A stretch of 31,808 nt of DNA from IMG/VR virus record IMGVR_UViG_3300025873_000023, positions 1 to 31,808 of that record; one strand, given 5' to 3'. Positions 5,785 to 31,594 of this stretch are shown in pieces; the stretch's first letter is position 1, and each line of letters starts with the position of its first letter. The notes below the pieces were generated by a model. That model worked only from the letters and a program-made list of their open reading frames with translations, searched no databases and was not told where the DNA came from. The position numbers and the translations under genes are program-made. This DNA comes from a virus.

Positions 5785-8700
5785 TCCAGCGCATCCGAAC
5801 TTTCGTAGTCGCGCATCGTCGGCGGTAAATAATATTCAAAGCCAGCGGGTGACCCCGCCGAGTGCAAAACCCATGTCGCATGGGGTTGACCAAACGTGGC
5901 TGTCAAGTGTGTTGGGTTTGCCTGAAGTTGATTATTCGCGCCGTTCGATAACGGGTCGTTACTCGCCTATGGGTTCTGACCCGCTTCACTACAAGCCGTC
6001 GCCTGCTACGCAGCGGTGGCTTCGTGATAACGAGAATAAGAGGGTTCGGGGCAATGAGTCCATATGGCAGAAACTTGCACCCGCTATGGGGCCATTCAAG
6101 TTAGGTTTTAACGCCATACTGAAGGGCAACACTATATCGGCTGTTGCGGGCCGTTGGTTTTTGGATTCCGTAGTAAATAGTCTCTCTAGTCCACTGGGCG
6201 AATTGATCGGTTGGTCAAATAACGGTTTCAAAACGGTGCCAATCGCGGCAGGGGGGGACATCCTGCCGACACCTGAGGTTTCTCCAACATCAGCAGCGGC
6301 AATGTCGGGTCTGTCGGCAGGCCCAAAGCCTATTAATTATATGGAAAAGTTGAGGGGGATGTACACATGGGGGGAGGTACTGGCTGATTACGACATTTGG
6401 CAAAGCAAGGAAGACCTGTGGAAAGCCCAAATAGCGGGCTTTACCTTGGACATAGGACTTGACCCAGTTACATACATGGGGTTGGTCAACAAGGGTGCTG
6501 GGCTGATTGCTAAACTTGTCGCTGGTGGCGGCAAGGGAGCCAAACAGGTTACGCGAATGGCGCTGAAGAAGAGTATACGGACTCAGATGGATGATGCGGC
6601 TCTTAGTGCTTTTGAGTTGTCGGGTAAGAATCCTTTCGATGAAGAAGTGTTGAGCAGTATTGTAGATGACATTGTTCGTTATGCAAAGAAGGCACCGTCA
6701 ACGACGGATGAGATTGCCGAGGCATACAAGCGTGGAGTGTACTTCCAAGCAGATGATTTGGGATTGGACAATTGGTTGGTCGTTGACTTGGCAAAGGCCG
6801 CAGGAGTTACGGGACCAGCCTTTGACGATGCATTCAAATTCATAATTAAGGCTGATCTCGCAGATGATATTGCGACGATCATCGCAGCGAGCGGTAAGGG
6901 CTTCGTTAAGGGTGCCACAAAGATAACGGATGACGAACTACGTATCGCTGCCAAGCATATTGCCGATTCTGGTTTGGATGCCAACTTTCGTGAAGCAGGC
7001 CAACAGGGGTACAAGGGGGCATGGTTCAAGGATTTGAAGGAGGCGGAAGAACTCAGTCTTGCCTTCGGGTTTAAGGTTCCGCTGACGGGACCGACGGGTC
7101 GTATCTTGCGGTTGCATAATTTGGATCAGCCGTTGGGGGTAAAGTTTTGGGCTGAGAATACACGCGCACCGTTTATCGGTACGTGGGTACGGGGTGTTCC
7201 ACAGGGCGCCCGAAAACTTATTTTTGGAAGGTCGGGCATGGGGGGTCCGTTGACCCCGTTGGGGTTCCTGCGTCGTGGGGGCCGCTTGGCTGACGTTCGG
7301 AAAATAATCCGTGCCGCAGAGAAGGCAGGCGATTACGGAACTGTTCAAAGTTATCGGGAGGTTCTGCATTCTGCTGGTCGTGGAAACGCCCAAAAGCGTT
7401 CCACGGAATTGAACCTTGCACGGTATCGCAAAGAGGTAGAAACTACGTTGGGGAAAGACACCCCTGAATGGGCAACGATCAAGGATGACTTGCTTCATGC
7501 AGCGGGCGGTGACGAGCAGGCGATACAACGCATCGGTCCTGAGCGTGCCAAAATTGTTCAGGAGTTTATGGAGTTTGTTCTGAATACGGCGAATGCGAGG
7601 GCTGGCCGAAACTTTATTAAGAGAACTGACTGGTATCGTCCGCGTCAATTGTCGGAAGAAGCCCGCAAGTACATGTTCGACAAGGGAACAGGTTTAGCCC
7701 AAGAACATCACATGCACGACTATGCCCTTGCTGGGTTTGAAAAGCAGCGCAAGTACGTTTCCCATGAACAGTTGCAGGAAATGATTGAGGCTGAAGTCAA
7801 GAAGGGTCTTTCACCTGAGGCTGCTCAAAAGGCCGTACGCAAGCGTGGCGCCCAAGACGAATTTATGGGCGAAAGGCTGATGTCGCCTGAAACCCACCCT
7901 GACGGGTTGTCTGTTGAGAATCAGATCAACGAGATTCTGGATCGTGCAGGCGTTGGCTACGACTTGTTCAGCAACGACTGGGACACGGTGATGGATTCGT
8001 ACATCAAACTTGTATCCCACCGCACAGGCGAAGTGTATGCGGAGACACTGTTAACCAAGTCAGGAATCTTCAAAAGACGGTATGTGAACCTGAAGCATAT
8101 TCCCGATATTGGTATTTCCAATTCGGTCAAGGTTGTACGCGACGCCGAAAAGTCGATGGTGAGGGCTGCTGCCCATGCGGAGGATGTGCTTAATCAAGCC
8201 GTTAAGCGTGTCGGGTCGAAACTTGCCAGTCAGCAACAGAACGTTATTGAACGTGAAGCCATTCTGAAACAGGCAGAGGCAACTTACGAGGCGGCTTTGC
8301 GTCGGCACGACGAATTGGTGAAGCCTGCCTTGGCAGCGGACGCTGAGGTTGGGGCGATTGACGCACGTATCGCAGAGTTGGACGCTGAGATGGCGAAACT
8401 GCAACAGCGCCTAGAGGGTGTAGATATTAGCCAGATGGCCGAACTGGAACAGCGGCGGATTGACATTGTTGCAGAGATGAACAATTTGCTTTCAAAGACT
8501 CCCCGCTTTGAGATGCACCTCAATCGTCTGCGAACCTCAACTGCTGCTGTGCTTGAGATGGAAGACAAGGTTACCAGTATCTATGGTGATGAGGAAACGT
8601 TTGAGTTCTTTGCCAAGATATTTGACGATCATAGAAGTTACGATGAAACGCTGGATGAGTACGTGCAGGTGCGCCTAGATGCACAGAAGGGCTTGGGGGC

Positions 8701-11700
8701 ACCAGAGGGGTCTGGCCCATTCCCCGAATTTGAAGTTGGTCCTGAAGACATCCTGTGGGGACCAGACGATACAGCGATTGCTTCGTCAGGCAAGTGGCAA
8801 ATACGTCATGGCAACAAGGTGTACTCCTCTTTGGAGGTTCATCAGATGATGGAACAAACCGACTTGTACATGCAGTCTCTGGACGCTGGTAACGAGGTGG
8901 CATTGGGTGAATGGTTGGGGATGGAATTGTTCCTTGACGCTGCTGGCCCTGATGATGCAGGCGGAATGTTGCGCTCATTGAAGTACAACATAGATCGCAT
9001 ACATAAAGAAATCGAAGAGTCATCTTTAGTTGTTGACGACTTCGTTGGCCGTTTCGGGAATGAGGCGTTGGGTGGTGGAGAGATTCCTACTCCTGAGGCT
9101 GTTGTGCGGGCGAAGGATACGATGGTTGAGATTATCAACGAGTCGTGGATGTCTGCTCAACAGCGTAGGCATCTGGAAGGGATTGGGGCGACTGACGACA
9201 CGCACATATGGACTGAGTTGTGGGAGAATCCGAAGTTTACTGCTGCTGCGGCCACCTATTACAATTCGGTTGGCGACAAGTATGTGGGTAGTTCTATTAA
9301 AACGCTTGCGGATATGAACACGTTGCTTGATTCGGCACGCGCCCAGTTGGGGAAACAGTGGGTAGATGTTTCGGGGACGTTGCAGAGTTACGGGGCGACG
9401 GTTTCTGCCATAGGTGAGGGTAAGAAGGGTTTGCTGTATGGCGGTTTCGGTATTGATGATTACAATTACTTGTCGTCGTTTAAGGGTACGATAGACAACG
9501 GGCCTACGTCGTTGAATAATCCGTTCCCGATCAAGGGGTTGGACCCCGACGATTTGTTCGATCCAGCCAAGATAGAGATACTTGGGAGTAATACACAGGG
9601 AGGAGGTGCCACTGCTGATTCTCCGCTTGACGTTGTAGGCGGGTCGAACAAAGGGTTCAAGTTTAGTTACACGTTTCCCGATGGTACTAAGGGAATTTAT
9701 TATGCTAAACTTGCCGAAAGCGGCAAGTTTGGGGGTTTGGCAACTACGTCCATGACGGGCGGCGACGCTGCGCTTCACCGTATCAGTGGCGAAGTCCTTG
9801 CTGATCGCTTGTATCGTGACTTGGATGAGATTGCAGGTGGTACGGGGGTTGCGGCTCCAACCAGTTGGTACGGTTATCATTCGGGGGCAAAGGCAACTCC
9901 TCAGATTCCTGAAGGTTGGTGGAAGATTTCAAACTGGAACGACAACTTTGTCCAAGGCTTGAGTCCCTTTAAAGGTGGTGCGAAGATGTCTGACCAGTAT
10001 CGCATCTTCAACCCTGCTACAAAGAAATACGAAATAGTTCTTAAGGGGACAGAAGCCCTGCCTGCCGATGCAGTACCTATGGCGGATCTTGCTTCCGACC
10101 AACTTGCGGCAGACCTGCTCTTGGCGAACACAGATGTTGTCGGCTTTGAAGCCGACAACATCGGAATAGACGCCGTTACGGGCAAAGTGTGGCGCATGGA
10201 TACTGGTGCGTCGTTCCACTACCGCGCCCAAGGATTGCCCAAAGACGGCGGTAGGGGGTTTGAGGAGTACGATTGGCGTAAAGTTTACGAACTCTTTGGT
10301 GAGGGTGACCAGCGCACGGGAACGTTCTTTCCAGAAAACACCAAGTATGACGATAATCCAGCGGGCGCCCAAGTGTTCAATGGTGACATACGTAAGTTCA
10401 TGGACACCAGCGAAGTAGGGTTTACGGGTCAGATGCAACTGCAACTTGAACAGATGCTCAAGTTGCGGGGCATCTATGGTGGGTGGGATGGTTTCGTGTT
10501 GAAGCATCTTCCTGATCTGCCTCAACCTGAAGTAGACATGTTTGTTAAATGGTTTGATACCAGACTTCGGGTTATGTCTGACTATTTCCAACTCCCATAC
10601 CTTGAATCTGAAGACCTGCTGAAGCAAACAGTCGCTAGGAGAGGTGTACCTGCTGAGGTAATCGAAGAGTTGACGCAGAAGACGTATGGGGCTAATCAGA
10701 AAACGTCTGAGTTCATGGGTTATGAATCGTGGCTTAGTCCTGAAGTGAATGGGTTGTCCGAATCGCAGGCGTTGGAAGAGTTTCCCTTTACTAAAGCCTT
10801 TAACGAAGTAACGGGAACCAAATGGCAAAAGAACAAGTTAGCCCGCGAACGCGATAAGGCTGTCGTAAAGTATATGCAATCGTTGGAAGCAACGGGCGAG
10901 TTGAACTACATCATGGAAACCGACGCAGTGTTGAACTCCGTCGGACCAACAATATTCTTCAAGGATGCTTGGCGTAGTGGAGGGTTGTACGACACCGCTG
11001 CGGTTGCCACCCAACAGCGAGTCTACGATGTTCCTGTATTGCAACAAGAAATGGAACACATCTTCGACCTTGGGATTTTTGGCAGAGCCGTCCTTGATGA
11101 AGACCAACCAACCGCTGTTACGTGGATTCCTGATCACGAAGCAGGGGAACCTGCGCATGGTTACTTTCAGATAGTTGGAACAGGGCTTCCTGAAGCAGAC
11201 GTAGCGAATATGGACGATGCAGTAAAGCAACTATATTCTGAGGCATGGGTGCGAGGAAAGGAAGCAGCACTCACGACCATTGGAGAGCCATCTGGCAGGG
11301 TCTTCGTATGGGAGATCGACCTTCGTCAAGCCTCGCAAGTAATTGAAGAAATATCGGGGATACCTACACCCGTGACCCGTGAGACTATGGAAGCGGTGGC
11401 TAAGGCTCAAGCCGACTTCGCGGCTGATCCAGCACAAGTGTTGTCCAAGTTTACAAAGGAGGAACTTACTGAATTTCAAGAGATGGGTACGTCTGCGGAA
11501 GAGTTCCTACGGTATGCTGCCCGCCGCGAATTGGGCCTAAGCCTTGACATACCTCCGTCAACGTCGAAGGAAGCGTGGCAACAGTATTCAGCGTTGAGTC
11601 CCACGCAGCGCGGATGGCCGAAGACGGAAGCACGGGTACTTCAGGTAATGAAAGACATGGTTAGGAACGGTCGCTATGGGCACGACGCTGCGGCACTGTT

Positions 11701-14700
11701 GGACGCGGGAAGTATGCCGATTGAATACGACCAAATAGATGGTCTGTGGAAAGTTACCGTCAGGAATCCGCACACACAGTTCATAGAAGAAGTTGGCCCA
11801 ACATATTCAACTGCGGAGATTTTAGAATTCTTTGCCGAAAGTTACCCCAAAGCCAAGGCTGCCCCTGAGGGTGTCGGCACGTTTGGGGAACAATTCAGTG
11901 CAGCACTCAAGGATGTCGATGTCGGCGGCAAGGGAATCAAGTCCCTTGCGCCAAGTCAGGAATACTCTGCCATTGAAGAAATCATTGAAAGCGCGGCTCC
12001 TCCGTGGGGTACAGATACGGGCAATTACGGAGTAGTTATCGTTGGTGGTACTACCGAAAATCGAACTGTCAGGTTGCGGATGCCTTCTGATGATCCTAAG
12101 ACGGGTGAACCGTTCGGCGGCAACCGTTGGACGTTCTCCAAGGGTGCCGCCGAAACAGGTGAAGACCCAGCGCAGACAGCGATTCGTGAAACGTGGGAGG
12201 AAACGGGGCTGGATGTGGAGATCGTCGGGTACCTTCCTGAAATGCCCGCAGGGTCTACAACGCATACACATTTCTTTATCGGGCGTGTCAAGCAGGGGTA
12301 CGCATCAAAGCCGATAACGGGGAGTGCAGAGTTTGCGGATAACATTTTGAGACTCAACCACTTTAGCGAGTACGAAAATTGGTGGAATCCTGCGTTGGGT
12401 CACGGAGTACCGTCAACAGGATGGGTTGACCAAATTGCTCCCAACGCGGTGGCGATGCCTCAGATTGGGTCTATGGCTCAGGGCCGCAAGTTCGGACATC
12501 GTGTTCAGGTGAATTTGGGGGAATTGGGGGGGGAGGCTACCAAGATTTATGGGATTCCGCCTCATCTTCGTACGGCTCTTGCCGATATAGAGGTTCAACG
12601 CGGTTTGCATGATCCGTTTTCACCATCCGACTTTGGTCCGCCAGCAGGTTCAGGTGGGTTAACTGCGCCACAACCAATGAGGGATTTGGCAAAAGCGGAG
12701 AAAGATTTGTTTGCGGCCTACGACTGGTCGGAGAGTGCGATTACCAGCGCTGGCGAGCGGGACCAGTTGGGTAGACAGGGGATGGGGGGATGGGCGAAGA
12801 ACGATATGAAGTTCGACATGTTGGAAAAGGTACACGATTCTGGTGATCCTGTGTGGGAAGAAATCCTTATCGGTTTGCGGAAGCAGGGCGGCGACACCGC
12901 CGCTGAACGTCAGTATCCTTTGAAACGGAACAATTTGGTTGCTGCCACGTTTGATGCTGTGGCCGCTCTGCGTCGGCGTAACATTCCTACGTTTAACGCT
13001 ATGGGTTGGCGCGATCAGGTCACCTATCTAGGTTTTGTCGGAGGCTCAAACATAAAAGGCAGTCATGGTGTCGGAAGGTACCATTACACTGGGCGTGGAG
13101 AAATGACCGTGCGCCTGAAAGGTATGGGAACGAAAGATGGAAAGGCTCGTCCTCCAGCGGGCAAACTCAGGAGCAGCAATGGCCCTGAGGGTCCAGCATC
13201 CTCGATGGGTCAAAGAATCATATACGATTGGATGGAGGCATTGCATACGTTTGCACTTGCCCCTAAGAAAGACATTGAGCATTCAATAGCAGAGTATTTG
13301 GCGTTTGTCAGCCATCGCAATGGGGAACAGTCAATAACTTATTGGCTGAATCGGATGGCAATTGAACAGGGCACCCTTATGCGCAACGTTGTGGGCAGTA
13401 ATCAACATTCACTGTGGGAAACCTTGGTTCGTAGCGCCTCATCGGACATGGACCTAGGTATGGCTGCGAGTCTCCACGGCACCAGCGGTGGAGCGACTTT
13501 GTTGGGGGCATCTCATAAGTTTGCAAGGGGAGTGTTATCAGACGTTGGCGTCCAGTCTGGCTACGGCATTGGTATGGGGGCAAAATCAGAGTCGTACAAG
13601 TTGGCCCGTTTCTACGAGATTTACAAACGGGCACTTAGCGCCGATGGCCGTGTGGCAGTTGCTTGGCCGAACACGGAGCCACCCGCACTGATAATGATAA
13701 ATAGTCCTCAGTATCGACAGGGTGGCACGGCACCGACGGGGATACCATATGCGGGTACTTCAGTTGGCGGCTACGGCGGCGGCGGTGGTTCGATAAACTG
13801 GATGTTGATAAACCCACGGGCTATTCAACCTGATCCTATTCCCATGATGACTACAACGTCAGGTCCGAACAAATTTGACCTTGGCCCAACTTTGCGACCT
13901 GAGGCAACAGAGTTGGGCCGTTTCCAGCGGGCAGGTATGACAAGGGGAAACGACCCAACAGGGCAGGGACAGAGAGATTTGGCGGGTGTGTCAAACACTG
14001 AGAAATTACTTGCCGAATACGAAGGCTTCGTTGGCAGCATGGCTATCCCTCCCAAAGATGTAGAACGGTCAATGGACCTTTTGGAAGAAATGAACGTTGC
14101 TAAAGTTGCGAATTTAAGCGACCGCTTTGGGGCTGTCCAGACGCAGCAAGTAATGCAGCAACGTGTAGATGATTTCGCTGACGAGTTGGCGGAGAAGGTA
14201 GCGGTGTGGAAGGGCGCGAAAGAGGCATCGACCGATGAGGTAATCGCGTTCAATGATTTGAACCATCGGGTTGCTGCCGCCAAGGAGGGGATAGATGCGT
14301 TTGAACGAATGAAGCAAGCAAACATTACGGAGGCGACAGCGGAAGAGTTGCGGGACACGTTTAGAAGCATCGAAATGTCGCTTGCGATATTGACAGACGC
14401 TGACCTACAGGTTTTGGACAGTGTGGGGCAAGATGCGATAAACAGTGTACGCGGCAAGTATGCGCGTTGGATCGAAGGCGAAGGTGTACCCGTACAACTA
14501 CTGGACCCTGCTACGGGGCAACCCGACATAGGTTCTCTGTATCCAAGCACTGCGGCTCAAAAACTGGTAGATACTGAACCGTTGAACGGAGAAAACTTCT
14601 GGTTCCCATTGAAAGCATTCCAAGACCGTGAAGAAATCCTAGACGAACTCCTGATCTCAGGGTACAAACCGTTCGGCAACATCGCGCAAGCACCTAAGGA

Positions 14701-16093
14701 AATGGTTGAAGCCATGACGGCGATCACCAGATTCCGTACAGCAGGCGGATGGGGCGCATTCTTGAAGCAGTACGACAAACTACACAATCTGCTCAAGGGC
14801 TACATGATAATGAAGCCCGGTTTCCATTCGCGTAACTTCTTTTCTGCGACGTTTATGAACTTTTTGCATGGGGTGCGGTTGAGTAGTTATCGTCGTTTCC
14901 AGAATGCGTATTGGCGTTATCAGTATGATTATGCGATGGAAACGGGCATGAAGTTCAGGGCGGATTCGGTGAAGAAGGCGATGAAGGCGCGTGGTATTTG
15001 GGGGGAGGCGAATTCTAATCATGTAGGGATTGTACGCGAGTTGGATCGTGCTGGTTTGTTGGGTGGTGGGCATGGTCAGGTTGCTGCTGAGTTTCAGGTG
15101 TTTGGTGGGAAGGCGCCTCGGTCTAAGTTGTTGTCGGCTATGAATCCGATGAATCCGCGTAATGCTCCGTTGCAGTTGTCGCGTAATGTTGGTATGGGAA
15201 CGGAGACTTTCGTCAGGGGGACGATGGGGTTTGATGTCTTGTTGCGGGGTGGTAATGCGGATGAAGCCTATGATGCTATTTCAAAGTTTCATTTTGATTA
15301 CGATGATCTGTCTGGTTTTGAGCGTAAAGTTATCAAGCGTGTGGTCCCGTTCTATACGTGGACGAAGAATGCTTTGCCTTTGATGATTGAGCAGTTGGGT
15401 CGTAATCCTGCGAAGATGACTGCGTATTTGAAGGCGAAGCGCAACATTGAGATGGGGCAGGAGAGGCCACAGTTGGTGCCTCCGTATTTTATTCGGCAGG
15501 GTGCGATTCAGTTGCCGTTCAAGTACGAAGGTCAGAACATGTACATTCTGCCTGATCTACCGTTTAAGACTCCGTTGGAGTTGATTGATCCTATGCTGGC
15601 GTTTGATAAGGATTTGTCATTTGCGCAGCGGGTGGATATTGCGTTGGGTTCTTTGGGTACACAGATTACGCCGTTGATTAAGGCGCCGTATGAGTGGAAG
15701 GCAAAGCAGAATTTGTGGAAGGGTTACAACTTTGACGGTCGGTACCAGCAGGTACCGACCGTCTATCGGAAGATTCCGTTGATGATGAACGCCTTGGATG
15801 CAATCGGGGTAGCAGAAAAGCAAAACGATATTTGGTTGATGCGCGATTACAACCTTCATACGATGGCGCAGTTGTTGCCGACGTTCACGGATATGCGACG
15901 GTTGTTCCCGTCGGAGGAGAGGTATCAGCAGCGAACGCTGTCATCGTGGATGAGTTTTGCGTTTGGTATGGGTCTGCGGACCAATACGTTGGACGAACAA
16001 CGCCGTATTTTGAATGCGTTGTGGTGGAAAGAGAAGGAAGAGCAGCAAGATATGCGGCAGTTGATGAGAGAATCGTTCAACCCGAACCCATAG
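5771..16093 (+). CDS. Giant 3440-residue polyvalent virion protein with Nudix box and kinase-like segment
   Basis: I start it at ATG 5771 (AGGA 5 nt upstream), inside the end of the previous gene. No signal peptide. Residues about 796-935 form a long coiled coil. Residues about 1280-1500 resemble a HipA/PI-kinase-like fold: K1313 in YYAKLAE, D1455 and D1462-N1463 in DVVGFEADNI, D1477 in MDTG. Residues 2125-2147 are a Nudix box (G-x5-E-x7-RE-TW-EE-T-G-L), the signature of hydrolases acting on nucleoside diphosphates linked to another group. A Gly-rich stretch lies near 2670-2680. From about 3000 the sequence resembles internal virion proteins (FERKVIKRVVPFYTWTKN). I infer a large protein carried in the virion and perhaps ejected. 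Motif calls are by eye; the kinase call is weaker than the Nudix call. Confidence 0.8.
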   Translation: MPITNPAHPNFRSRASSAVNNIQSQRVTPPSAKPMSHGVDQTWLSSVLGLPEVDYSRRSITGRYSPMGSDPLHYKPSPATQRWLRDNENKRVRGNESIWQKLAPAMGPFKLGFNAILKGNTISAVAGRWFLDSVVNSLSSPLGELIGWSNNGFKTVPIAAGGDILPTPEVSPTSAAAMSGLSAGPKPINYMEKLRGMYTWGEVLADYDIWQSKEDLWKAQIAGFTLDIGLDPVTYMGLVNKGAGLIAKLVAGGGKGAKQVTRMALKKSIRTQMDDAALSAFELSGKNPFDEEVLSSIVDDIVRYAKKAPSTTDEIAEAYKRGVYFQADDLGLDNWLVVDLAKAAGVTGPAFDDAFKFIIKADLADDIATIIAASGKGFVKGATKITDDELRIAAKHIADSGLDANFREAGQQGYKGAWFKDLKEAEELSLAFGFKVPLTGPTGRILRLHNLDQPLGVKFWAENTRAPFIGTWVRGVPQGARKLIFGRSGMGGPLTPLGFLRRGGRLADVRKIIRAAEKAGDYGTVQSYREVLHSAGRGNAQKRSTELNLARYRKEVETTLGKDTPEWATIKDDLLHAAGGDEQAIQRIGPERAKIVQEFMEFVLNTANARAGRNFIKRTDWYRPRQLSEEARKYMFDKGTGLAQEHHMHDYALAGFEKQRKYVSHEQLQEMIEAEVKKGLSPEAAQKAVRKRGAQDEFMGERLMSPETHPDGLSVENQINEILDRAGVGYDLFSNDWDTVMDSYIKLVSHRTGEVYAETLLTKSGIFKRRYVNLKHIPDIGISNSVKVVRDAEKSMVRAAAHAEDVLNQAVKRVGSKLASQQQNVIEREAILKQAEATYEAALRRHDELVKPALAADAEVGAIDARIAELDAEMAKLQQRLEGVDISQMAELEQRRIDIVAEMNNLLSKTPRFEMHLNRLRTSTAAVLEMEDKVTSIYGDEETFEFFAKIFDDHRSYDETLDEYVQVRLDAQKGLGAPEGSGPFPEFEVGPEDILWGPDDTAIASSGKWQIRHGNKVYSSLEVHQMMEQTDLYMQSLDAGNEVALGEWLGMELFLDAAGPDDAGGMLRSLKYNIDRIHKEIEESSLVVDDFVGRFGNEALGGGEIPTPEAVVRAKDTMVEIINESWMSAQQRRHLEGIGATDDTHIWTELWENPKFTAAAATYYNSVGDKYVGSSIKTLADMNTLLDSARAQLGKQWVDVSGTLQSYGATVSAIGEGKKGLLYGGFGIDDYNYLSSFKGTIDNGPTSLNNPFPIKGLDPDDLFDPAKIEILGSNTQGGGATADSPLDVVGGSNKGFKFSYTFPDGTKGIYYAKLAESGKFGGLATTSMTGGDAALHRISGEVLADRLYRDLDEIAGGTGVAAPTSWYGYHSGAKATPQIPEGWWKISNWNDNFVQGLSPFKGGAKMSDQYRIFNPATKKYEIVLKGTEALPADAVPMADLASDQLAADLLLANTDVVGFEADNIGIDAVTGKVWRMDTGASFHYRAQGLPKDGGRGFEEYDWRKVYELFGEGDQRTGTFFPENTKYDDNPAGAQVFNGDIRKFMDTSEVGFTGQMQLQLEQMLKLRGIYGGWDGFVLKHLPDLPQPEVDMFVKWFDTRLRVMSDYFQLPYLESEDLLKQTVARRGVPAEVIEELTQKTYGANQKTSEFMGYESWLSPEVNGLSESQALEEFPFTKAFNEVTGTKWQKNKLARERDKAVVKYMQSLEATGELNYIMETDAVLNSVGPTIFFKDAWRSGGLYDTAAVATQQRVYDVPVLQQEMEHIFDLGIFGRAVLDEDQPTAVTWIPDHEAGEPAHGYFQIVGTGLPEADVANMDDAVKQLYSEAWVRGKEAALTTIGEPSGRVFVWEIDLRQASQVIEEISGIPTPVTRETMEAVAKAQADFAADPAQVLSKFTKEELTEFQEMGTSAEEFLRYAARRELGLSLDIPPSTSKEAWQQYSALSPTQRGWPKTEARVLQVMKDMVRNGRYGHDAAALLDAGSMPIEYDQIDGLWKVTVRNPHTQFIEEVGPTYSTAEILEFFAESYPKAKAAPEGVGTFGEQFSAALKDVDVGGKGIKSLAPSQEYSAIEEIIESAAPPWGTDTGNYGVVIVGGTTENRTVRLRMPSDDPKTGEPFGGNRWTFSKGAAETGEDPAQTAIRETWEETGLDVEIVGYLPEMPAGSTTHTHFFIGRVKQGYASKPITGSAEFADNILRLNHFSEYENWWNPALGHGVPSTGWVDQIAPNAVAMPQIGSMAQGRKFGHRVQVNLGELGGEATKIYGIPPHLRTALADIEVQRGLHDPFSPSDFGPPAGSGGLTAPQPMRDLAKAEKDLFAAYDWSESAITSAGERDQLGRQGMGGWAKNDMKFDMLEKVHDSGDPVWEEILIGLRKQGGDTAAERQYPLKRNNLVAATFDAVAALRRRNIPTFNAMGWRDQVTYLGFVGGSNIKGSHGVGRYHYTGRGEMTVRLKGMGTKDGKARPPAGKLRSSNGPEGPASSMGQRIIYDWMEALHTFALAPKKDIEHSIAEYLAFVSHRNGEQSITYWLNRMAIEQGTLMRNVVGSNQHSLWETLVRSASSDMDLGMAASLHGTSGGATLLGASHKFARGVLSDVGVQSGYGIGMGAKSESYKLARFYEIYKRALSADGRVAVAWPNTEPPALIMINSPQYRQGGTAPTGIPYAGTSVGGYGGGGGSINWMLINPRAIQPDPIPMMTTTSGPNKFDLGPTLRPEATELGRFQRAGMTRGNDPTGQGQRDLAGVSNTEKLLAEYEGFVGSMAIPPKDVERSMDLLEEMNVAKVANLSDRFGAVQTQQVMQQRVDDFADELAEKVAVWKGAKEASTDEVIAFNDLNHRVAAAKEGIDAFERMKQANITEATAEELRDTFRSIEMSLAILTDADLQVLDSVGQDAINSVRGKYARWIEGEGVPVQLLDPATGQPDIGSLYPSTAAQKLVDTEPLNGENFWFPLKAFQDREEILDELLISGYKPFGNIAQAPKEMVEAMTAITRFRTAGGWGAFLKQYDKLHNLLKGYMIMKPGFHSRNFFSATFMNFLHGVRLSSYRRFQNAYWRYQYDYAMETGMKFRADSVKKAMKARGIWGEANSNHVGIVRELDRAGLLGGGHGQVAAEFQVFGGKAPRSKLLSAMNPMNPRNAPLQLSRNVGMGTETFVRGTMGFDVLLRGGNADEAYDAISKFHFDYDDLSGFERKVIKRVVPFYTWTKNALPLMIEQLGRNPAKMTAYLKAKRNIEMGQERPQLVPPYFIRQGAIQLPFKYEGQNMYILPDLPFKTPLELIDPMLAFDKDLSFAQRVDIALGSLGTQITPLIKAPYEWKAKQNLWKGYNFDGRYQQVPTVYRKIPLMMNALDAIGVAEKQNDIWLMRDYNLHTMAQLLPTFTDMRRLFPSEERYQQRTLSSWMSFAFGMGLRTNTLDEQRRILNALWWKEKEEQQDMRQLMRESFNPNP
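9707..9730 (+). repeat. Hairpin in the giant gene over the KLAESGKF codons
   Basis: Perfect 10-bp stem 9707-9716/9721-9730 with AAAG loop. It covers the codons of the Lys proposed as the kinase-like anchor (K1313). Confidence 0.75.
10133..10162 (+). repeat. Hairpin in the giant gene over the DVVGFEADNI codons
   Basis: Perfect 14-bp stem 10133-10146/10149-10162 with a TG loop. It encodes exactly the D...DN stretch of the kinase-like segment. A 14-bp perfect stem in coding sequence is far beyond chance for one site. Confidence 0.8.
15734..15763 (+). repeat. Hairpin near the 3' end of the giant gene
   Basis: Perfect 13-bp stem 15734-15746/15751-15763, loop AGCA, in the codons for DGRYQQVPTV. 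The stem contains two GGTACC sites. Confidence 0.75.
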
Positions 16094-20931: not shown

Positions 20932-21646
20932 TTGCCGCCAACCAGTTCTGCGGGTCAATCGCTTCTGGACGCTCACCCCATGTGAATGGGCTGTGCTTGA
21001 CCAGCCCACCGAAGTAACCGCTCTTGTTGGTAAGCGGGTGATTGCCTTCACCCTGAATCACGGTATGTGTACCGTCTTCGTTCAGGGTAGTGCCACGCTT
21101 AATCTTGAAGTCACCAAGTCCGCACTTGCCGTTCTTGGTGATGGGAATGTCCTTGCCACGCATGGACTCTGCCCAGTAGTCGGCAGGGAACTGACGGCTA
21201 CCTGCGGCGAACAACTTTCGGATCGCCTGATTGTCCATGAACGCTGACTGCTGTGACGCATACTCAATGCCAATGGCACGTTCGTGCATGAGCAGTTTGT
21301 TGACTGCCGCATACTCGCTGTCGTCAATGTACAACGACGGGCGCTGGAGTCCTTGAGTCACAGGCTGTGCCTGCGGGAAGGCTTCCACGACGGTCGCTAT
21401 GGCAGTCGCTGTTGCATCCGTTACGTTGACGGCAGGCTCTATCTCAGCAACTGGCTGTACCAGCAGCGTCCGCTTCACCTCCGACAACCCCTGTGCCAGA
21501 GCGATAGCGTTATCTACTGCCATCGTCACTGCCACACCTTCGTCGCCGTTGTTGATTTCAGCGACGGTCAGTTCGACCGCAACCTTCATCAACACCTGCG
21601 CTTCAATTGATGCCCTCTCAGTAGGGCTTAGTGGCGTAAATGCCAT
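20924..21646 (-). CDS. Hypothetical replication-module protein
   Basis: 240 residues from ATG 21646 (AAAGGAAA upstream), overlapping the nuclease stop by 1 nt. The N-terminal about 95 residues are a helical Ala/Val-rich region. The C-terminal half contains KNGKCGLGDFKIKRG, HTVIQGEGNHPLTNKSGYFG and SPFTWGERPEAIDP. No catalytic or zinc motif is clear. Position between a Cas4-like nuclease and a helicase makes a single-strand-binding or recombination-mediator role possible, but I cannot support it from sequence. Confidence 0.7.
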   Translation of the reverse strand: MAFTPLSPTERASIEAQVLMKVAVELTVAEINNGDEGVAVTMAVDNAIALAQGLSEVKRTLLVQPVAEIEPAVNVTDATATAIATVVEAFPQAQPVTQGLQRPSLYIDDSEYAAVNKLLMHERAIGIEYASQQSAFMDNQAIRKLFAAGSRQFPADYWAESMRGKDIPITKNGKCGLGDFKIKRGTTLNEDGTHTVIQGEGNHPLTNKSGYFGGLVKHSPFTWGERPEAIDPQNWLAAIA

Positions 21647-22446
21647 TATGGTTTCCTTTCGTTGGAACCTTTGCAATGCGCCCAGTTGGCGCACCATTTC
21701 TCAGAACACCACCACCCGTTGTCACCCAATACCCACGGCGGTGTGGGCATGGCTTCAACGTAGCGGCATAGTGCTAAGACCTTCGTACGTAGCCAGTCGA
21801 AGTGCGTCTGGTCACGTACCAAATCCATGCGACCCACCCCGTCGGGATGCATGATCGCATATGAAAAGTTAGGGATGCCCAGTGCGTAACAATACGCAAT
21901 GCTTTGCACATCCCACCTTTCGTACTCCCAAGCAGTCCTAGAATAGTCACGCTTGGGGAACTTCCAATCCCACAAGCGGTCGCTCTCTACTAGGTCAACT
22001 GTCCCTGTGAGATTCACTATGCGCTCATCGTCTTCGATGAGCGGAACCTCAAAGTAATGCTCCACCGCTACGGGCTTGACAGTGGGGTACACCTCCGCAT
22101 ACCACGACGACAATTTGTTCTTCCCAACTGTCGCCGCAATCGACGGCGTATACGATTCCCAACGTTCAATCGTGGGTTCCATCTCCCCCCAATAGTAGTC
22201 AAACGCAGCGTGCAGATCCGATTCTTCCATCGGCCCATACCCGTCTATCACCGCAGACAAGGCATCCTCTGCAACTGTATGGCATACTGTCCCCAGCGAC
22301 GAAGCATCCTTCACGGGTTCCTCGCTGAGTCCGAAAATCGTGTTTCGGAATCTTTCCATACACATGTCCGCAGTCTTGATCGAAGACTGACGAACCCACG
22401 TATGCACCCACCGCCCATCCCCTGCTTTCTCCAAAGCGTGTTTCAT
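21646..22446 (-). CDS. Cas4/RecB-like PD-(D/E)XK exonuclease with iron-sulfur cysteines
   Basis: 266 residues, with AGGAGG 6 nt before ATG 22446. Motifs in order: C29 in ADMCMERF; GTVCH with H56; GTVD with D151; DWK with D160 and K162; QSIAY with Q181 and Y185. This is the complete RecB/Cas4 nuclease set. The C-terminus holds C247, C252 and C258 (WWCSEKWCANWAHCKG), which with C29 form the four-cysteine arrangement that binds a 4Fe-4S cluster in Cas4 and AddB nucleases. It probably resects DNA ends to single strands in phage recombination. A DR-hairpin-DR element lies directly upstream (22460-22525). Confidence 0.88.
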   Translation of the reverse strand: MKHALEKAGDGRWVHTWVRQSSIKTADMCMERFRNTIFGLSEEPVKDASSLGTVCHTVAEDALSAVIDGYGPMEESDLHAAFDYYWGEMEPTIERWESYTPSIAATVGKNKLSSWYAEVYPTVKPVAVEHYFEVPLIEDDERIVNLTGTVDLVESDRLWDWKFPKRDYSRTAWEYERWDVQSIAYCYALGIPNFSYAIMHPDGVGRMDLVRDQTHFDWLRTKVLALCRYVEAMPTPPWVLGDNGWWCSEKWCANWAHCKGSNERKP

Positions 22447-22459
22447 ATTTCCTCCTAAC

Positions 22460-22525
22460 GGTACTGAGTAAACTCCTCCCCTCTCTAAAGAGAGGGGAGG
22501 AGGTACTGAGTACCACTGAGTTTAC
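22460..22525 (-). promoter_or_regulatory. DR-hairpin-DR element before the Cas4-like gene
   Basis: GGTACTGAGTAAAC (22460-22473), a perfect 14-bp C/T-G/A stem (22473-22486/22489-22502, loop AA), then the 13-nt palindrome GGTACTGAGTACC (22502-22514) and ACTGAGTTTAC. On the - strand this reads GGTACTCAGTACC, hairpin, GTTTACTCAGTACC. The same flanking words around a different hairpin occur at 30814-30870. It looks like a paired protein-binding site. Confidence 0.65.
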
Positions 22526-27090: not shown

Positions 27091-27215
27091 ACCTGCACCT
27101 CCAGTGCGTCAAATATATCATTTACGGCATCCGCAAGCAGGTCATCGTAACCGATACCCGCTTCCAGATCAGCAAACAAGCGCATAAGCACCTGCTCTAT
27201 ACTCTCACGCTTCAT
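27087..27215 (-). CDS. Small acidic hypothetical protein (42 aa)
   Basis: ATG 27215 with GAGG about 8 nt upstream; both ends overlap neighbours by ATGA. The product is one acidic helical chain, MKRESIEQVLMRLFADLEAG then YDDLLADAVNDIFDALEVQV. Coupling on both sides supports translation, though the short length leaves doubt. Confidence 0.55.
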   Translation of the reverse strand: MKRESIEQVLMRLFADLEAGIGYDDLLADAVNDIFDALEVQV

Positions 27216-27517
27216 GCGTCTACCTCTTCCTTATCCCAATGCGTCAACACGCCGAGGTCGTCACCCTCAACCGCAAACCCATACTCAGCAGCAGCAGGAA
27301 CCGTCCACACATACTCACATGAGTAGTAGGTACCGAAGTCATGCGGGTTCGCCTGAATACACAACCGACCACCCTCAGGCTCATTACCGTAATGGCGCCT
27401 AATCTGCTCAATGAACCGCCTCAAATGCGCCTGTGCCTCACGAATGTAGGCATCACTGCCCAACTGCGGACAAGGCTCATCCCACGGCCCATCACCAACA
27501 TACAAACTGTCTCTCAT
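27212..27517 (-). CDS. Hypothetical protein (101 aa)
   Basis: GGAGG lies 6 nt before ATG 27517. The sequence begins MRDSLYVGDGPWDEPCPQLG and holds a helix with AQAHLRRFIEQIRRHYG, then strands (GTYYSCEYVWTVPAAAEYGF). A small alpha/beta protein of unknown function. The 17-bp hairpin at 27557-27596 stands about 40 nt upstream and probably sits in its leader. Confidence 0.65.
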   Translation of the reverse strand: MRDSLYVGDGPWDEPCPQLGSDAYIREAQAHLRRFIEQIRRHYGNEPEGGRLCIQANPHDFGTYYSCEYVWTVPAAAEYGFAVEGDDLGVLTHWDKEEVDA

Positions 27518-27556: not shown

Positions 27557-27596
27557 CCCATCTTCTCTCTCTCAAGAGAGAGAGAGAGAAGATGGG
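27557..27596 (-). repeat. 17-bp C/T-G/A hairpin, copy A
   Basis: CCCATCTTCTCTCTCTC (27557-27573) pairs perfectly with 27580-27596, loop AAGAGA, followed by GGGGACTCCA. The element at 28960-28999 is a near-identical copy. There is no T-run, so it is not an ordinary terminator. Confidence 0.85.
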
Positions 27597-28474: not shown

Positions 28475-28557
28475 TGGTGGAGGTGAGGGGAATCGAACCC
28501 CTGTCCGCAAGCGTCCGACATGCGGCTTTCACTTGCGTCGAAACCATAAACACCCCC
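28475..28557 (-). ncRNA. ssrA-like: tmRNA-type tRNA-like domain without mRNA-like region
   Basis: 83 nt on the - strand, beginning GGGGGTGTTTATGG and ending CACCTCCACCA. The acceptor stem GGGGGTG/CACCTCC has a G3-U70 wobble and A73, the alanine identity elements. GGTTTCGACG after the acceptor is the signature of tmRNA 5' ends, and GGACAGGGGTTCGATTCCCC is a tmRNA-type T arm (5-bp AGGGG/CCCCT stem). CGCAAG/CTTGCG forms P2. Only about 20 nt remain where tmRNAs carry pseudoknots and a tag reading frame. CCA is encoded. It is either a minimal or deleted tmRNA, or part of a split one. Confidence 0.6.
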
Positions 28558-28731
28558 GAAGGGACTTACACGGGCTTAAGTTTTCGCAGTTTTATGCGCT
28601 ACACTGCACCCACATAGGATTGTAGTCCCACGCACCTACGTCTACAACCGCAGATAACCCGATGCCACGCACCACACGGGTGCCGCTTGCAGCCTAAAGC
28701 CTATTTACCCTCGCTGCAACGAGCCTACACG
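28558..28731 (-). other. Structured leader upstream of the tmRNA-type domain
   Basis: No gene. On the - strand a stem TTGCAGC/GCTGCAA with an inner TAAA/TTTA hairpin comes first (about 28683-28720), then GCACC/GGTGC, then two competing pairings using the same CTACA(AT) word (GGTTGTAG with CTACAATCC, or GGGACTACA with TGTAAGTCCC), as in a pseudoknot or switch. I found no alanine-rich tag frame. Confidence 0.35.
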
Positions 28732-28950
28732 CTATGACTCCTGAGCCATAGTCTCCAAACGTGTCTCACGCCACTCCTGCACATCCACCAACTCCTCCAA
28801 CAACGACGCAAGCGCCTTTGGCAACACACTCACAGGCAGCAACCAATCCTCAGCACGCACAAGCGCCTGCCCCAACAGTTCGAGACCCTCCTCATCCATG
28901 AACACAGCAAACAAACCCTCACTCGCATCCACACAAGTCACATCAATCAT
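28732..28950 (-). CDS. Small hypothetical protein (72 aa)
   Basis: ATG 28950 has GGGAGG 6 nt upstream; GGG of this site is the base of a 17-bp hairpin (28960-28999), so initiation may depend on the hairpin opening. The product starts MIDVTCVDASEGLFAVFMDE, then an acidic, leucine-rich helix (LLEELVDVQEWRETRLETM). Unknown function. Confidence 0.65.
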   Translation of the reverse strand: MIDVTCVDASEGLFAVFMDEEGLELLGQALVRAEDWLLPVSVLPKALASLLEELVDVQEWRETRLETMAQES

Positions 28951-28959
28951 CGGAAACCT

Positions 28960-28999
28960 CCCATCATCTCTCTCTCAAAAGAGAGAGAGAGATGATGGG
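28960..28999 (-). promoter_or_regulatory. 17-bp hairpin, copy B, at the ribosome site of 28732-28950
   Basis: CCCATCATCTCTCTCTC (28960-28976) pairs perfectly with 28983-28999, loop AAAAGA, followed by GGGACTCCACACGC. On the - strand transcript its 3' arm ends ATGATGGG, directly joined to AGG, so it includes part of the Shine-Dalgarno. Copy A (27557-27596) differs by a few stem bases, with both arms changed together. Confidence 0.75.
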
Positions 29000-29452: not shown

Positions 29453-29599
29453 TACGCACCTCCTGCGCACTCAACCAACTAACAACAACTCAACACGCAC
29501 CCATGTGGCACTGTACACACACACAGGGCAGCACAGGGCGGGAGTCGAAGACTCCCGCCCCGCACAGCGGGGGAGTCGAAGACTCCCCCGCCGCAGACG

Positions 29600-30076
29600 C
29601 TACGCCGTAGCCAGTCCCAAGGACTGGGCCTTGGCGACGATGCGCTCCACCGTACCTTTCCAAGCAAGGTTCCCTTGCTTGTCAAGGTGCGTCGGAACCA
29701 ACTCCATCGCTTCCCGAAGGGAAGCGAGAACCTGAGTGACATCTCCGATGTCACTCGCCTTCGTGGCATTGGCAAGACGAGCATTAATGCTAGCATTAAT
29801 GCTTTTGTTCTTCGCGGATTTCGCCGCTTTCTCCAACTTCCAAGCCGAAGGCTTGGAAGTCGTGGCAACCGCTGGAGCCGAAGGCTCCAGAACCACGTTT
29901 GAGGGAACCTCAAACGTTGGGATCGACGGTGCCGAAGGCACCGTAACGGCAACCGACGGTGCCGAAGGCACCGTGACCGTGGCTTCGACGGAATCGAAGA
30001 TTCCGCTATCCACGATCTGTTCGGCAAGCCGAACAATAGCCGAAGCCGAGGCTTCGGTGATGGTCAGGGTCTTCAT
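29600..30076 (-). CDS. Low-complexity protein encoded through the hairpin array
   Basis: 158 residues from ATG 30076 with AAGGAGG 9 nt upstream. The N-terminus is MKTLTITEASASAIVRLAEQ; residues 30-75 are Ala/Val/Pro/Ser-rich with repeated VPSAPS and EPSAPA; the C-terminal half is helical (SLREAMELVPTHLDKQGNLA). Thirteen perfect hairpins lie inside the frame. PSA words arise where a stem with a TTC loop is read (CCT-TCG-GC), so DNA structure seems to dictate residues. The ribosome site lies at the foot of the 30087-30147 hairpin. Function unknown. It reads as a real gene by its start site and frame, but its sequence may be shaped by selection on DNA or RNA. Confidence 0.7.
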   Translation of the reverse strand: MKTLTITEASASAIVRLAEQIVDSGIFDSVEATVTVPSAPSVAVTVPSAPSIPTFEVPSNVVLEPSAPAVATTSKPSAWKLEKAAKSAKNKSINASINARLANATKASDIGDVTQVLASLREAMELVPTHLDKQGNLAWKGTVERIVAKAQSLGLATA

Positions 30077-30086
30077 TTGGCATTTC

Positions 30087-30147
30087 CTCCTTGTTGGTAT
30101 CTTCTTATCATCACCCTTTAGGGTGATGAGAAGATACCAACAAGGAG
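30087..30147 (-). promoter_or_regulatory. Longest array hairpin, overlapping the ribosome site of 29600-30076
   Basis: 19-bp outer stem 30087-30105/30129-30147, a 3-nt bulge (30106-30108), 9-bp inner stem 30109-30117/30120-30128, loop TT. On the - strand transcript its 3' arm contains most of the AAGGAGG site, so translation of the next gene could be blocked when folded. Confidence 0.7.
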
Positions 30148-30183
30148 AATACTGGTTCCCCCTTTAGGGGGAACCAGTACAAA

Positions 30184-30221
30184 TTGGTTCTTCTGATCCC
30201 TTAAGGGATCAGAAGAACCAA
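30184..30221. repeat. Perfect 38-nt palindrome without loop
   Basis: TTGGTTCTTCTGATCCCTT is followed directly by its exact complement, so it has full two-fold symmetry as duplex DNA. Unlike its neighbours it has no loop bases. Confidence 0.9.
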
Positions 30222-30813
30222 GACTCGTTCACAACCAATCTACGATTGGTTGTGAACGAGAACCCCAAACCAAGCCGAATCACCGTTGTTCTCATAACCC
30301 TTTAGGGTTATGAGAACAACGAAAAAGCCGCCAACCACTCTCTCCAACCAATCATAGATTGGTTGGAGAGAGTGCCAAACTGGTTGCTTTACTCAACTAC
30401 GTTGAGTAAAGCAACCAACTAAGCCAACCTCCAATCAACCGCTTACAACTACGTTGTAAGCGGTGATTGCCAGAAGCCGAAAGTTACGCGCAGGTACATC
30501 AACCTACGGTTGATGTTGATTCCAGCAGTCCGACCGTAGGTCGGTGACCATCCAGAGTTCTCAACGAAGTTGAGAGTTCGATTCGGCCCGTTTCCCGTGC
30601 TAAACCTTTGGTTTAGCAACTAGTTCAAGCACCGAAGGTGCTTGTCGCCGCCGAAGTCCGTCGGGCACCGTTGCCTTGGCAACGGTGGGGGTGCCGTACC
30701 CCCCCTTGGGGGGTACGGGGCGCGCACGCGTGTATGTATAGATATGGAGGGACAGATCGGGCAAAAAAAGAACTCCCTGTGGGAGTTCGTGCGCCTGTAC
30801 GCGGTATTGGTGA

Positions 30814-30870
30814 TTTACTCAGTACCATTCCCCAACGCTGAAGGCGTTGGGGAATGTTTACTCAGTACCA
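30814..30870 (+). promoter_or_regulatory. DR-hairpin-DR element before the packaging operon
   Basis: TTTACTCAGTACCA at 30814-30827 and again at 30857-30870 flank a 13-bp perfect stem (30826-30838/30844-30856, loop TGAAG). The same flanking word surrounds a different hairpin at 22460-22525 on the other strand. Likely a protein-binding site serving two operons. Confidence 0.65.
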
Positions 30871-30887: not shown

Positions 30888-30936
30888 GTGTCCCATTATT
30901 GTACTAGTGGGTTGGTACAATGCCCGTTTGGGACAC
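30888..30936 (+). promoter_or_regulatory. Nested dyad and possible promoter before 30967
   Basis: GTGTCCCA (30888-30895) pairs with TGGGACAC (30929-30936) and ATTGTAC (30898-30904) with GTACAAT (30915-30921). TACAAT at 30916-30921 is a plausible -10 box; no convincing -35 lies 17 nt upstream. A regulator bound to the dyad would cover it. Confidence 0.45.
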
Positions 30937-31141: not shown

Positions 31142-31594
31142 ATGGCACAAAACGGAGGCGGCAAAGGCTGGCAAACAGACATAGACACAGGCAGCAAAGT
31201 TATGCCCGCAGCATGGGGCAACCTACTAGACTGGCTGCTACAGGGGCCAGAACGTGCCCCGTCTACACAACGCGACTGGGCTACAGAAAACGATCTCCAT
31301 GAGGATTCGATTCGACGTATCAAGCGTGACCCACGCTTTATACGTGAATGGGATCGGCGCGCTGCCGAACTAAACATTAACCCTGAAAGGGTTCAGAGCG
31401 TCGTAGATGCTCTTTGGCAGCGTGCGTCTGCGGGGGATACGAAGGCTGCGTCTTTGTATTTGCAGTATGTGGAGAAGTTTACGCCGAAGCGTCGGGTTGT
31501 GGTTGATGATGAGCGTGCGGTGGCTGGGATGTCTGATTCTGAGTTGGCTGATGCTTTGGAGTCTGAGGTTGTTGGTCTTAGGGCAGTGTCTTAA
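31142..31594 (+). CDS. Terminase small subunit-like protein
   Basis: 150 residues from ATG 31142; the frame extends to a GTG at 31046 that would overlap the Arg-rich gene, so I reject it. Residues 41-62 (STQRDWATENDLHEDSIRRI) are an HTH of the kind used by small terminase subunits, followed by DPRFIREWDRRAAELNINP and a helix ERVQSVVDALWQRASAGDTK, with a C-terminal charged tail. Small terminases recognise the packaging start and feed DNA to the large ATPase. The large subunit gene is not seen; it may be the one that begins at 31707. Confidence 0.65.
   Translation: MAQNGGGKGWQTDIDTGSKVMPAAWGNLLDWLLQGPERAPSTQRDWATENDLHEDSIRRIKRDPRFIREWDRRAAELNINPERVQSVVDALWQRASAGDTKAASLYLQYVEKFTPKRRVVVDDERAVAGMSDSELADALESEVVGLRAVS

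Follow-up and report, generated by a model that had tools for sequence, protein, structure and literature searches.

A tract of about 30 perfect hairpins with mostly unrelated stems in the control region of an uncultured, apparently marine phage family, probably reshaped by template switching

The DNA analyzed in this study, referred to as the window, comprises 31,808 nucleotides and corresponds to positions 1–31,808 of the IMG/VR virus record IMGVR_UViG_3300025873_000023. An array of hairpins occupies positions 29536–30856. Leftward genes of the replication type (AEP primase, DnaB-like helicase, and RusA-like resolvase) lie to the left of the array, and rightward genes for terminase-like and portal-like proteins, a 3440-aa virion-type protein, and an amidase lie to its right and at the start of the record. 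The direction of the genes turns at the array, the minimum of the cumulative GC skew falls there, and a TerS-like gene follows downstream. This gene is read as a putative terminase small subunit, since it has a weak HTH match and, in the related locus L020, precedes terminase-like ORFs. The array itself may represent a DNA-level hairpin tract in the control region of an uncultured, seemingly marine phage family.

Two further genes of the window deserve mention. The 3440-aa protein (5771–16093, +) contains a NUDIX domain at residues 2113–2170 and otherwise no recognized domain. A tmRNA gene was predicted by ARAGORN at 28475–28798 (−) with the tag AWDYNPMWVQCSA (Rfam tmRNA, 81 bits); the same program revealed no tmRNA in the available parts of the relatives G001, G002, G004, and G005. 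Within the predicted tmRNA interval, a match to the Pistol ribozyme was located at 28663–28724 (−) with 51.9 bits (gathering score 34.5). The tmRNA may be processed by a ribozyme; otherwise, the upstream half of the ARAGORN call is wrong.

When only perfect, non-overlapping stems of 7 bp or more (loops of 0–6 nt) are counted, positions 29536–30856 contain 31 of them, spanning 757 of the 1321 bases (57%). This agrees with an earlier note on this DNA, which had counted about 32 inverted repeats over about 60% of 1.3 kb. The shuffle control suggested there was carried out: 200 dinucleotide shuffles of the interval contained 0.53 stems on average and 3 at most, and the window outside the array holds 1.57 stems of this length per 1321 nt. 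Seventeen stems reach at least 10 bp (shuffle mean 0.01), and the longest one, at 30184–30221, has 19 perfect base pairs, in line with the maximum stem length given previously. Most of the hairpins have loops of 0–3 nt. Most of the stems had been described as unrelated, which is true, with the refinement that several inner cores recur with differing outer arms: CCCTTTAGGG three times, ACGGTGCC-GAA-GGCACCGT twice, and both CAAC-TAC-GTTG and CCAATC-NNN-GATTGG more than once.

The leftward ORF 29600–30076, which is conserved in relatives, and the DNA immediately downstream of it account for approximately half of the array. Single long hairpins of a like kind are found upstream of other leftward genes (22473, 27557, and 28960). 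Folding as single-stranded DNA gave −12.4 to −19.5 kcal/mol for each of the long intergenic hairpins and −27 kcal/mol for the one that covers the start of the 158-aa gene (30087–30147). In the leftward sense, the 3' arm of the latter ends in AAGGAG, likely the ribosome-binding site of the 158-aa gene. The putative −10 region of a leftward promoter, TATCTATACAT, lies to the right of the array. The control hairpin at 30826–30856 keeps its position in relatives with a covarying stem and a TGNNG-like loop. The same control module is present at two sites, namely ahead of the PD-(D/E)XK nuclease gene and ahead of the terminase genes. The features of the array and its surroundings are summarized in Table 1.

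Table 1. Features of the hairpin array and neighboring elements in the window
Feature	Position	Strand	Remarks
Two GC-rich perfect hairpins, 11 bp, loop GAA	29536–29591		Left end of array, immediately 3' of the 158-aa gene (leftward); L012 and L020 have them conserved
158-aa gene	29600–30076	−	Family found beside the same locus in relatives; coding DNA holds 13 perfect array hairpins
Coding hairpin GAGTGACATC-TCC-GATGTCACTC	29734–29756		Polarized template-switch footprint
Long hairpin, 27 pairs plus 3-nt bulge, arms 24 nt	30087–30147		Bulge also in L012 and L020
Seven long intergenic hairpins, stems 14, 19, 17, 18, 18, 17, and 12 bp	30150–30464		
Shorter intergenic hairpins	30496–30718		Last one is C/G-rich CCGTACCCCCC-CTT-GGGGGGTACGG (30694–30718), position kept in relatives
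TATCTATACAT	30734–30744	−	Same or close variants in most relatives examined
Intrinsic-terminator-like hairpin followed by 7 T, leftward	30764–30788	−	
Control module: TTACTCAGTACC direct repeats (30815–30826 and 30858–30869) around hairpin 30826–30856	30815–30869	+	
Inverted repeat GTGTCCCA ... TGGGACAC	30888–30936		Upstream of rightward genes
TerS-like gene	31142–31594	+	Anchor for finding relatives
Second control module, TACTCAGTACC - hairpin - TTACTCAGTACC	22460–22514	−	Upstream of PD-(D/E)XK nuclease gene 21646–22446
17-bp hairpin	27557–27596		Upstream of leftward ORF 27212–27517
17-bp hairpin	28960–28999		Directly before GGGAGG of leftward ORF 28732–28950

For the 158-aa protein, no match was obtained in Pfam or PHROG. 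Its predicted structure consists of an N-terminal helix, a linker of low confidence, and a C-terminal three-helix domain. Ribosomal protein bS20 ranked first in Foldseek without reaching significance (E 0.15); its VIA Z of 8.1 falls among those of unrelated helical bundles, and no bS20 match was obtained with sequence profiles. Low whole-sequence E-values against designed TPR repeats are the sum of weak repeated matches. Paralogs of the 158-aa family occur in L017, L048, L054, L080, and L088.

Searches of IMG/VR retrieved two close relatives with the 158-aa protein as query, and the best 80 of 208 loci (L011–L090) were taken with the TerS-like protein as query. Neither the array, by distant blastn, nor the TerS-like protein, by tblastn, gave a match among 50,697 phage records, and the DnaB-like protein as query gave one distant match only. 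The same locus was found in related IMG/VR phages, with largely different stems. A TerS relative (66%) was also detected on L107 (PAYF01000019.1), a contig binned as a marine Euryarchaeota MAG. As the amidase and the tmRNA of the window phage suggest a bacterial host, this may be a mis-binned viral contig.

Among the matches listed, 43 of the 79 anchor contigs end at most 1.5 kb upstream of the TerS-like gene and only 6 end at most 1.5 kb downstream of it, which indicates that the region is hard to assemble and could speak for an assembly or amplification artefact. However, the array of the window is identical in contig L011 over 963 nt, L015, L018, and L019 from three metagenome sets carry nearly the same array, as do L025 and L029 from two, and relatives keep the ORF within the array open. 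The artefact reading is thus refuted in substance, and we assign it next to no probability. A cos or pac end is not favored as the cause of the contig breaks, which are spread over 46–1403 nt and share no common site.

In a background scan of 1.49 Mb around the DnaB-like and portal-like genes of the lineage, stems of at least 8 bp occurred at 0.78 per 1.3 kb, and every scan window with at least eight stems was either the same locus or lay beside a gene of the 158-aa family. Long stems are scattered over the TerS tree; L022, for instance, has 12 hairpins and its sister L017 none. With stems of at least 6 bp, 24 of the 25 loci tested (window included) nevertheless exceeded shuffles (z 4.6–22), also the loci L023, L080, L085, and L086, which have no long stems, and L017 was the lone marginal case (z 2.1). 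The richness in hairpins is therefore older than any particular hairpin. The distribution of stem lengths has a secondary peak at 16–20 bp, and the long intergenic stems have linkers between them. The longest palindrome seen, perfect with 32-bp arms and no loop, is located in L024, 709 nt upstream of the TerS-like gene.

Mapping of the perfect stems of L020 on the window revealed 28 pairs that had changed on both sides and stayed paired, and a single one-sided change. The reverse mapping (window stems on L020) gave 28 paired versus 7 one-sided changes. In unpaired columns, 15% of the positions differ between the two. For the intergenic part, 24 paired Watson–Crick changes were found versus 0–4 one-sided ones, which answers the question about compensatory changes raised in the earlier note. 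A symmetric change in stem length was observed as well (CTCGTTCACAACCAATC in the window, CTCGTCGTACAAATC in L020). The intergenic comparison of L012 with the window was less clean (10 one-sided versus 9 paired changes), because one L012 hairpin was replaced by a copy of another L012 hairpin and misaligns, which explains part of the one-sided changes. In arrays running through genes (L025/L050/L058 and L043/L055), more stem changes are one-sided than paired; hairpins in these arrays come and go rather than being strictly kept, and their turnover looks neutral.

Substitution patterns were explored at the level of single hairpins. Over 547 nt, the only difference between L012 and L013 is the exact inversion of a 3-nt loop (TAC/GTA) inside a 7-bp stem. 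Further loop inversions between orthologous hairpins concerned TAC/GTA, TC/GA, AA/TT, and TTC/GAA. In the hairpin at 29734, L012 and L020 carry TGTC and the window carries GAGT, a change polarized by outgroups. GAGT pairs with the other arm, so that the stem is lengthened to 10 bp, and Asp-Lys is replaced by Thr-Gln in the protein. Polarized footprints of this type are few. When free stem extension was allowed, a nearby inverted copy of at least 9 nt was found for 15 of 228 substitution clusters upstream versus 2 of 402 downstream, an excess that is partly due to the presence of the hairpins there; clusters with direct copies numbered 9 upstream and 4 downstream.

Template switching is known to homogenize arms with inversion of the spacer (PMC8604942), and to make and repair stems in one step, by which RNA hairpins are maintained (PMC8794818). 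Paired multi-base changes, spacer inversion, and an arm-templated cluster were all observed in the present data. A template-switch mutation process very probably acts at the array. Cutting and resolving of cruciforms could also flip loops, a RusA-like resolvase being encoded. The paired stem changes, the loop inversions, and a locus that is rich in hairpins even where its sequence cannot be aligned bear out the previous view that symmetry, and not sequence, is conserved. Relatives lacking both symmetry and covariation, which had been named as evidence to the contrary, did not emerge, but L017, L023, and L080 are without long stems.

The locus might merely be prone to template switching, for example by exposure of single-stranded DNA at a replication or transcription start, with perfect hairpins piling up without use. 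The occurrence of footprints even at the cost of amino acid changes would fit such a neutral hotspot, as would the loop inversion as the sole difference between the L012 and L013 contigs, the gain and loss of long stems between sister lineages, and the one-sided changes in gene-spanning arrays. On the other hand, the hairpin excess stays at one locus across relatives that are unalignable there, and the long intergenic stems cluster at 16–20 bp with linkers instead of growing without limit. Long palindromes are usually costly to a genome, and their persistence without use is unexpected. We consider a purely neutral origin unlikely. Selection for hairpin capacity is favored by this persistence, by the peak at 16–20 bp, and by the paired intergenic changes. 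Selection for hairpins and template switching had been put forward as options before; the latter is now well supported and the former likely, and the choice between them has been made only in part.

To characterize the nature of the hairpins, mismatches and loops were compiled. The 3157 stem pairs of 248 distinct hairpins contain 91 mismatches (GT 18, AC 15, other 58). The shares of G-T and A-C are each near the 1/6 expected of random mismatches, with no wobble enrichment on either strand, whereas tolerance of G-U on one strand would be expected of an RNA-selected structure. Among the non-redundant triloops, 64 of 116 have the form GNA or the complement TNC, compared to 14.5 expected (1 in 8; P about 6e-28, which is indicative only, as the hairpins are non-redundant but related and hence not independent). 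They are split into 29 GNA and 35 TNC. Loop-closing pairs are predominantly C..G (178) and not G..C (19). Within the window, 19 of the 20 hairpins with GNA/TNC triloops are located inside the array. These triloops correspond, on one strand or the other, to d(cGNAg), a stable DNA motif. Ultra-stable DNA minihairpins arise from GNA triloops with a C-G closing pair, the GAA triloop being ultra-stable in DNA (PMC11101458). The same geometry allows the promoter hairpins of phage N4, whose loop holds a sheared G:A pair, to extrude in vivo when the DNA is supercoiled (PMC4496689). The loop preferences could instead stem from fold-back priming, or from what nucleates template switching, rather than from selection.

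The array might also be the 5' leader and first cistron of a leftward early transcript, with hairpins acting in RNA (translation control, RNase processing, message protection, or antitermination) and template switching only supplying the paired changes. The conserved promoter-like TATCTATACAT, facing leftward just right of the array, is consistent with this, and the array follows the leftward transcription unit and continues into its first gene. Four leftward genes have hairpins at or near the ribosome-binding site, which suggests some RNA role for those units, and RNA hairpins maintained by template switching are known (PMC8794818). Both the leftward promoter and the transcript are putative, however, and RNA selection seldom demands 17–19 perfect pairs. 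The lack of strand preference in the triloops, the lack of G·U enrichment, and the free inversion of loops favor a DNA element, or a mutation process on DNA, over an RNA element. A leader acting in RNA appears rather improbable, although the hairpins at ribosome-binding sites keep it in consideration.

As a further alternative, the hairpin arms may be dyad sites for a phage regulator or the terminase (operator or pac-like). The inner motif TACTTAGTA, which also flanks the conserved control hairpin, is common to four or five hairpins in L022, L024, and L031, and the array adjoins the terminase gene. In the window, however, the motif is restricted to the two control modules, the array stems share no site, and half of the array is coding. 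A protein-binding array is thus highly improbable. The statement that an ordinary operator array does not fit holds for the stems of the window, but is weakened by the operator-like TACTTAGTA arms in L022, L024, and L031.

Our preferred explanation combines template switching with selection for DNA hairpins. The array would be located in a control region where leftward early genes and rightward terminase genes diverge. Upon mutation of a stem, one arm would be recopied from the other by polymerase template switching, so that several bases of both arms change at once and stay paired, stems grow from short cores, and loops invert. The capacity for compact hairpins at the locus would plausibly be kept by selection while the sequence drifts, given that nearly all relatives are rich in hairpins there and that the loops obey the d(cGNAg) rule of stable DNA on one of the two strands. 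Close to the point where transcription and GC skew diverge, hairpins would extrude when the DNA is negatively supercoiled, or would fold when it is single-stranded, and might conceivably serve the initiation of replication or transcription, or absorb torsion, via shape and not sequence. As a whole, this statement has somewhat less than an even chance of being correct, and the origin or torsion role by itself is doubtful. One-sided changes in gene-spanning arrays, hairpins over ribosome-binding sites, and sister contigs without long stems (L017 beside L022) count against it. Only tentatively do we propose a locus selected for DNA shape alone, in which some 30 hairpins of free sequence, with perfect pairing, stable DNA loops, and upkeep by continual arm-to-arm template switching, would act by their structure as a start site or a site for torsion, at the point from which early and late transcription diverge.

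Several known classes of elements were compared to the array and rejected. A CRISPR array had rightly been excluded: identical direct repeats with unique spacers are absent, the copies differ, and the symmetry lies within each unit. An array of intrinsic terminators is not compatible with the presence of a T run after a hairpin only at 30770–30788 (a clear 7-T run). No Rfam family exceeded its gathering score at the array; elsewhere in the window, only tmRNA and Pistol did, and weak microRNA matches below the gathering scores reflect the hairpins only. As compared to integron attC sites, the hairpins are perfect, without extrahelical bases, and no cassettes are present. In accordance with the earlier note, no described element with this layout was found in the open-access literature, the scope of our search. 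The judgment that the layout is new rests on this absence, and the mutation mechanism is already known.

REP, BIME, and REPIN elements of bacterial chromosomes are likewise short palindromes that cluster in intergenic DNA. All REP elements, however, are copies that belong to a single sequence family, whereas the stems of the array are mostly unrelated to each other. In the ESAS of Cluster K mycobacteriophages (PMC3203893), inverted repeats of about 17 bp around a short variable spacer precede the start codons of non-structural genes. These repeats are imperfect, follow a common consensus, and occur scattered, one at each gene, while the stems of the array are perfect, clustered, and without such a consensus, with only short recurring cores.

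The virion-RNA-polymerase promoters of phage N4 (PMC4496689) resemble the array in their short DNA hairpins with a 3-nt loop and a sheared G:A pair, extrudable under negative supercoiling (here predicted), in a phage control region. N4 has three early promoters of conserved sequence with small stems, which are read by the virion RNA polymerase; here, about 30 sequence-unrelated hairpins have stems of up to 19 bp, and stems and flanks differ, without a conserved promoter sequence around them. In the 3440-aa protein, no Pfam, PHROG, or PDB-sequence match to an N4-type virion RNA polymerase and no motif-B-like pattern were found, the record being an incomplete genome. Provided that selection acts on hairpin capacity, pairing and loop geometry instead of sequence would define the locus as a genetic element. 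Homology searches would miss such an element, and it would offer a test of whether DNA hairpins act in vivo.

The closest correspondence exists with template-switch (quasipalindrome) mutation (PMC8604942, PMC8794818), which has in common with the array arm homogenization, simultaneous multi-base compensatory change, spacer inversion, and stem extension. As a caution, compensatory changes alone do not prove RNA structure. Known cases are scattered single events or single hotspots, whereas here a phage lineage has retained about 30 neighboring inverted repeats at one locus. Most observations of template switching concern rare, isolated events; this small locus holds dozens of hairpins, together with paired changes and with loops that flip between near-identical genomes, so that direct measurements of the rate, polarity, and strand bias of the process could be made here.
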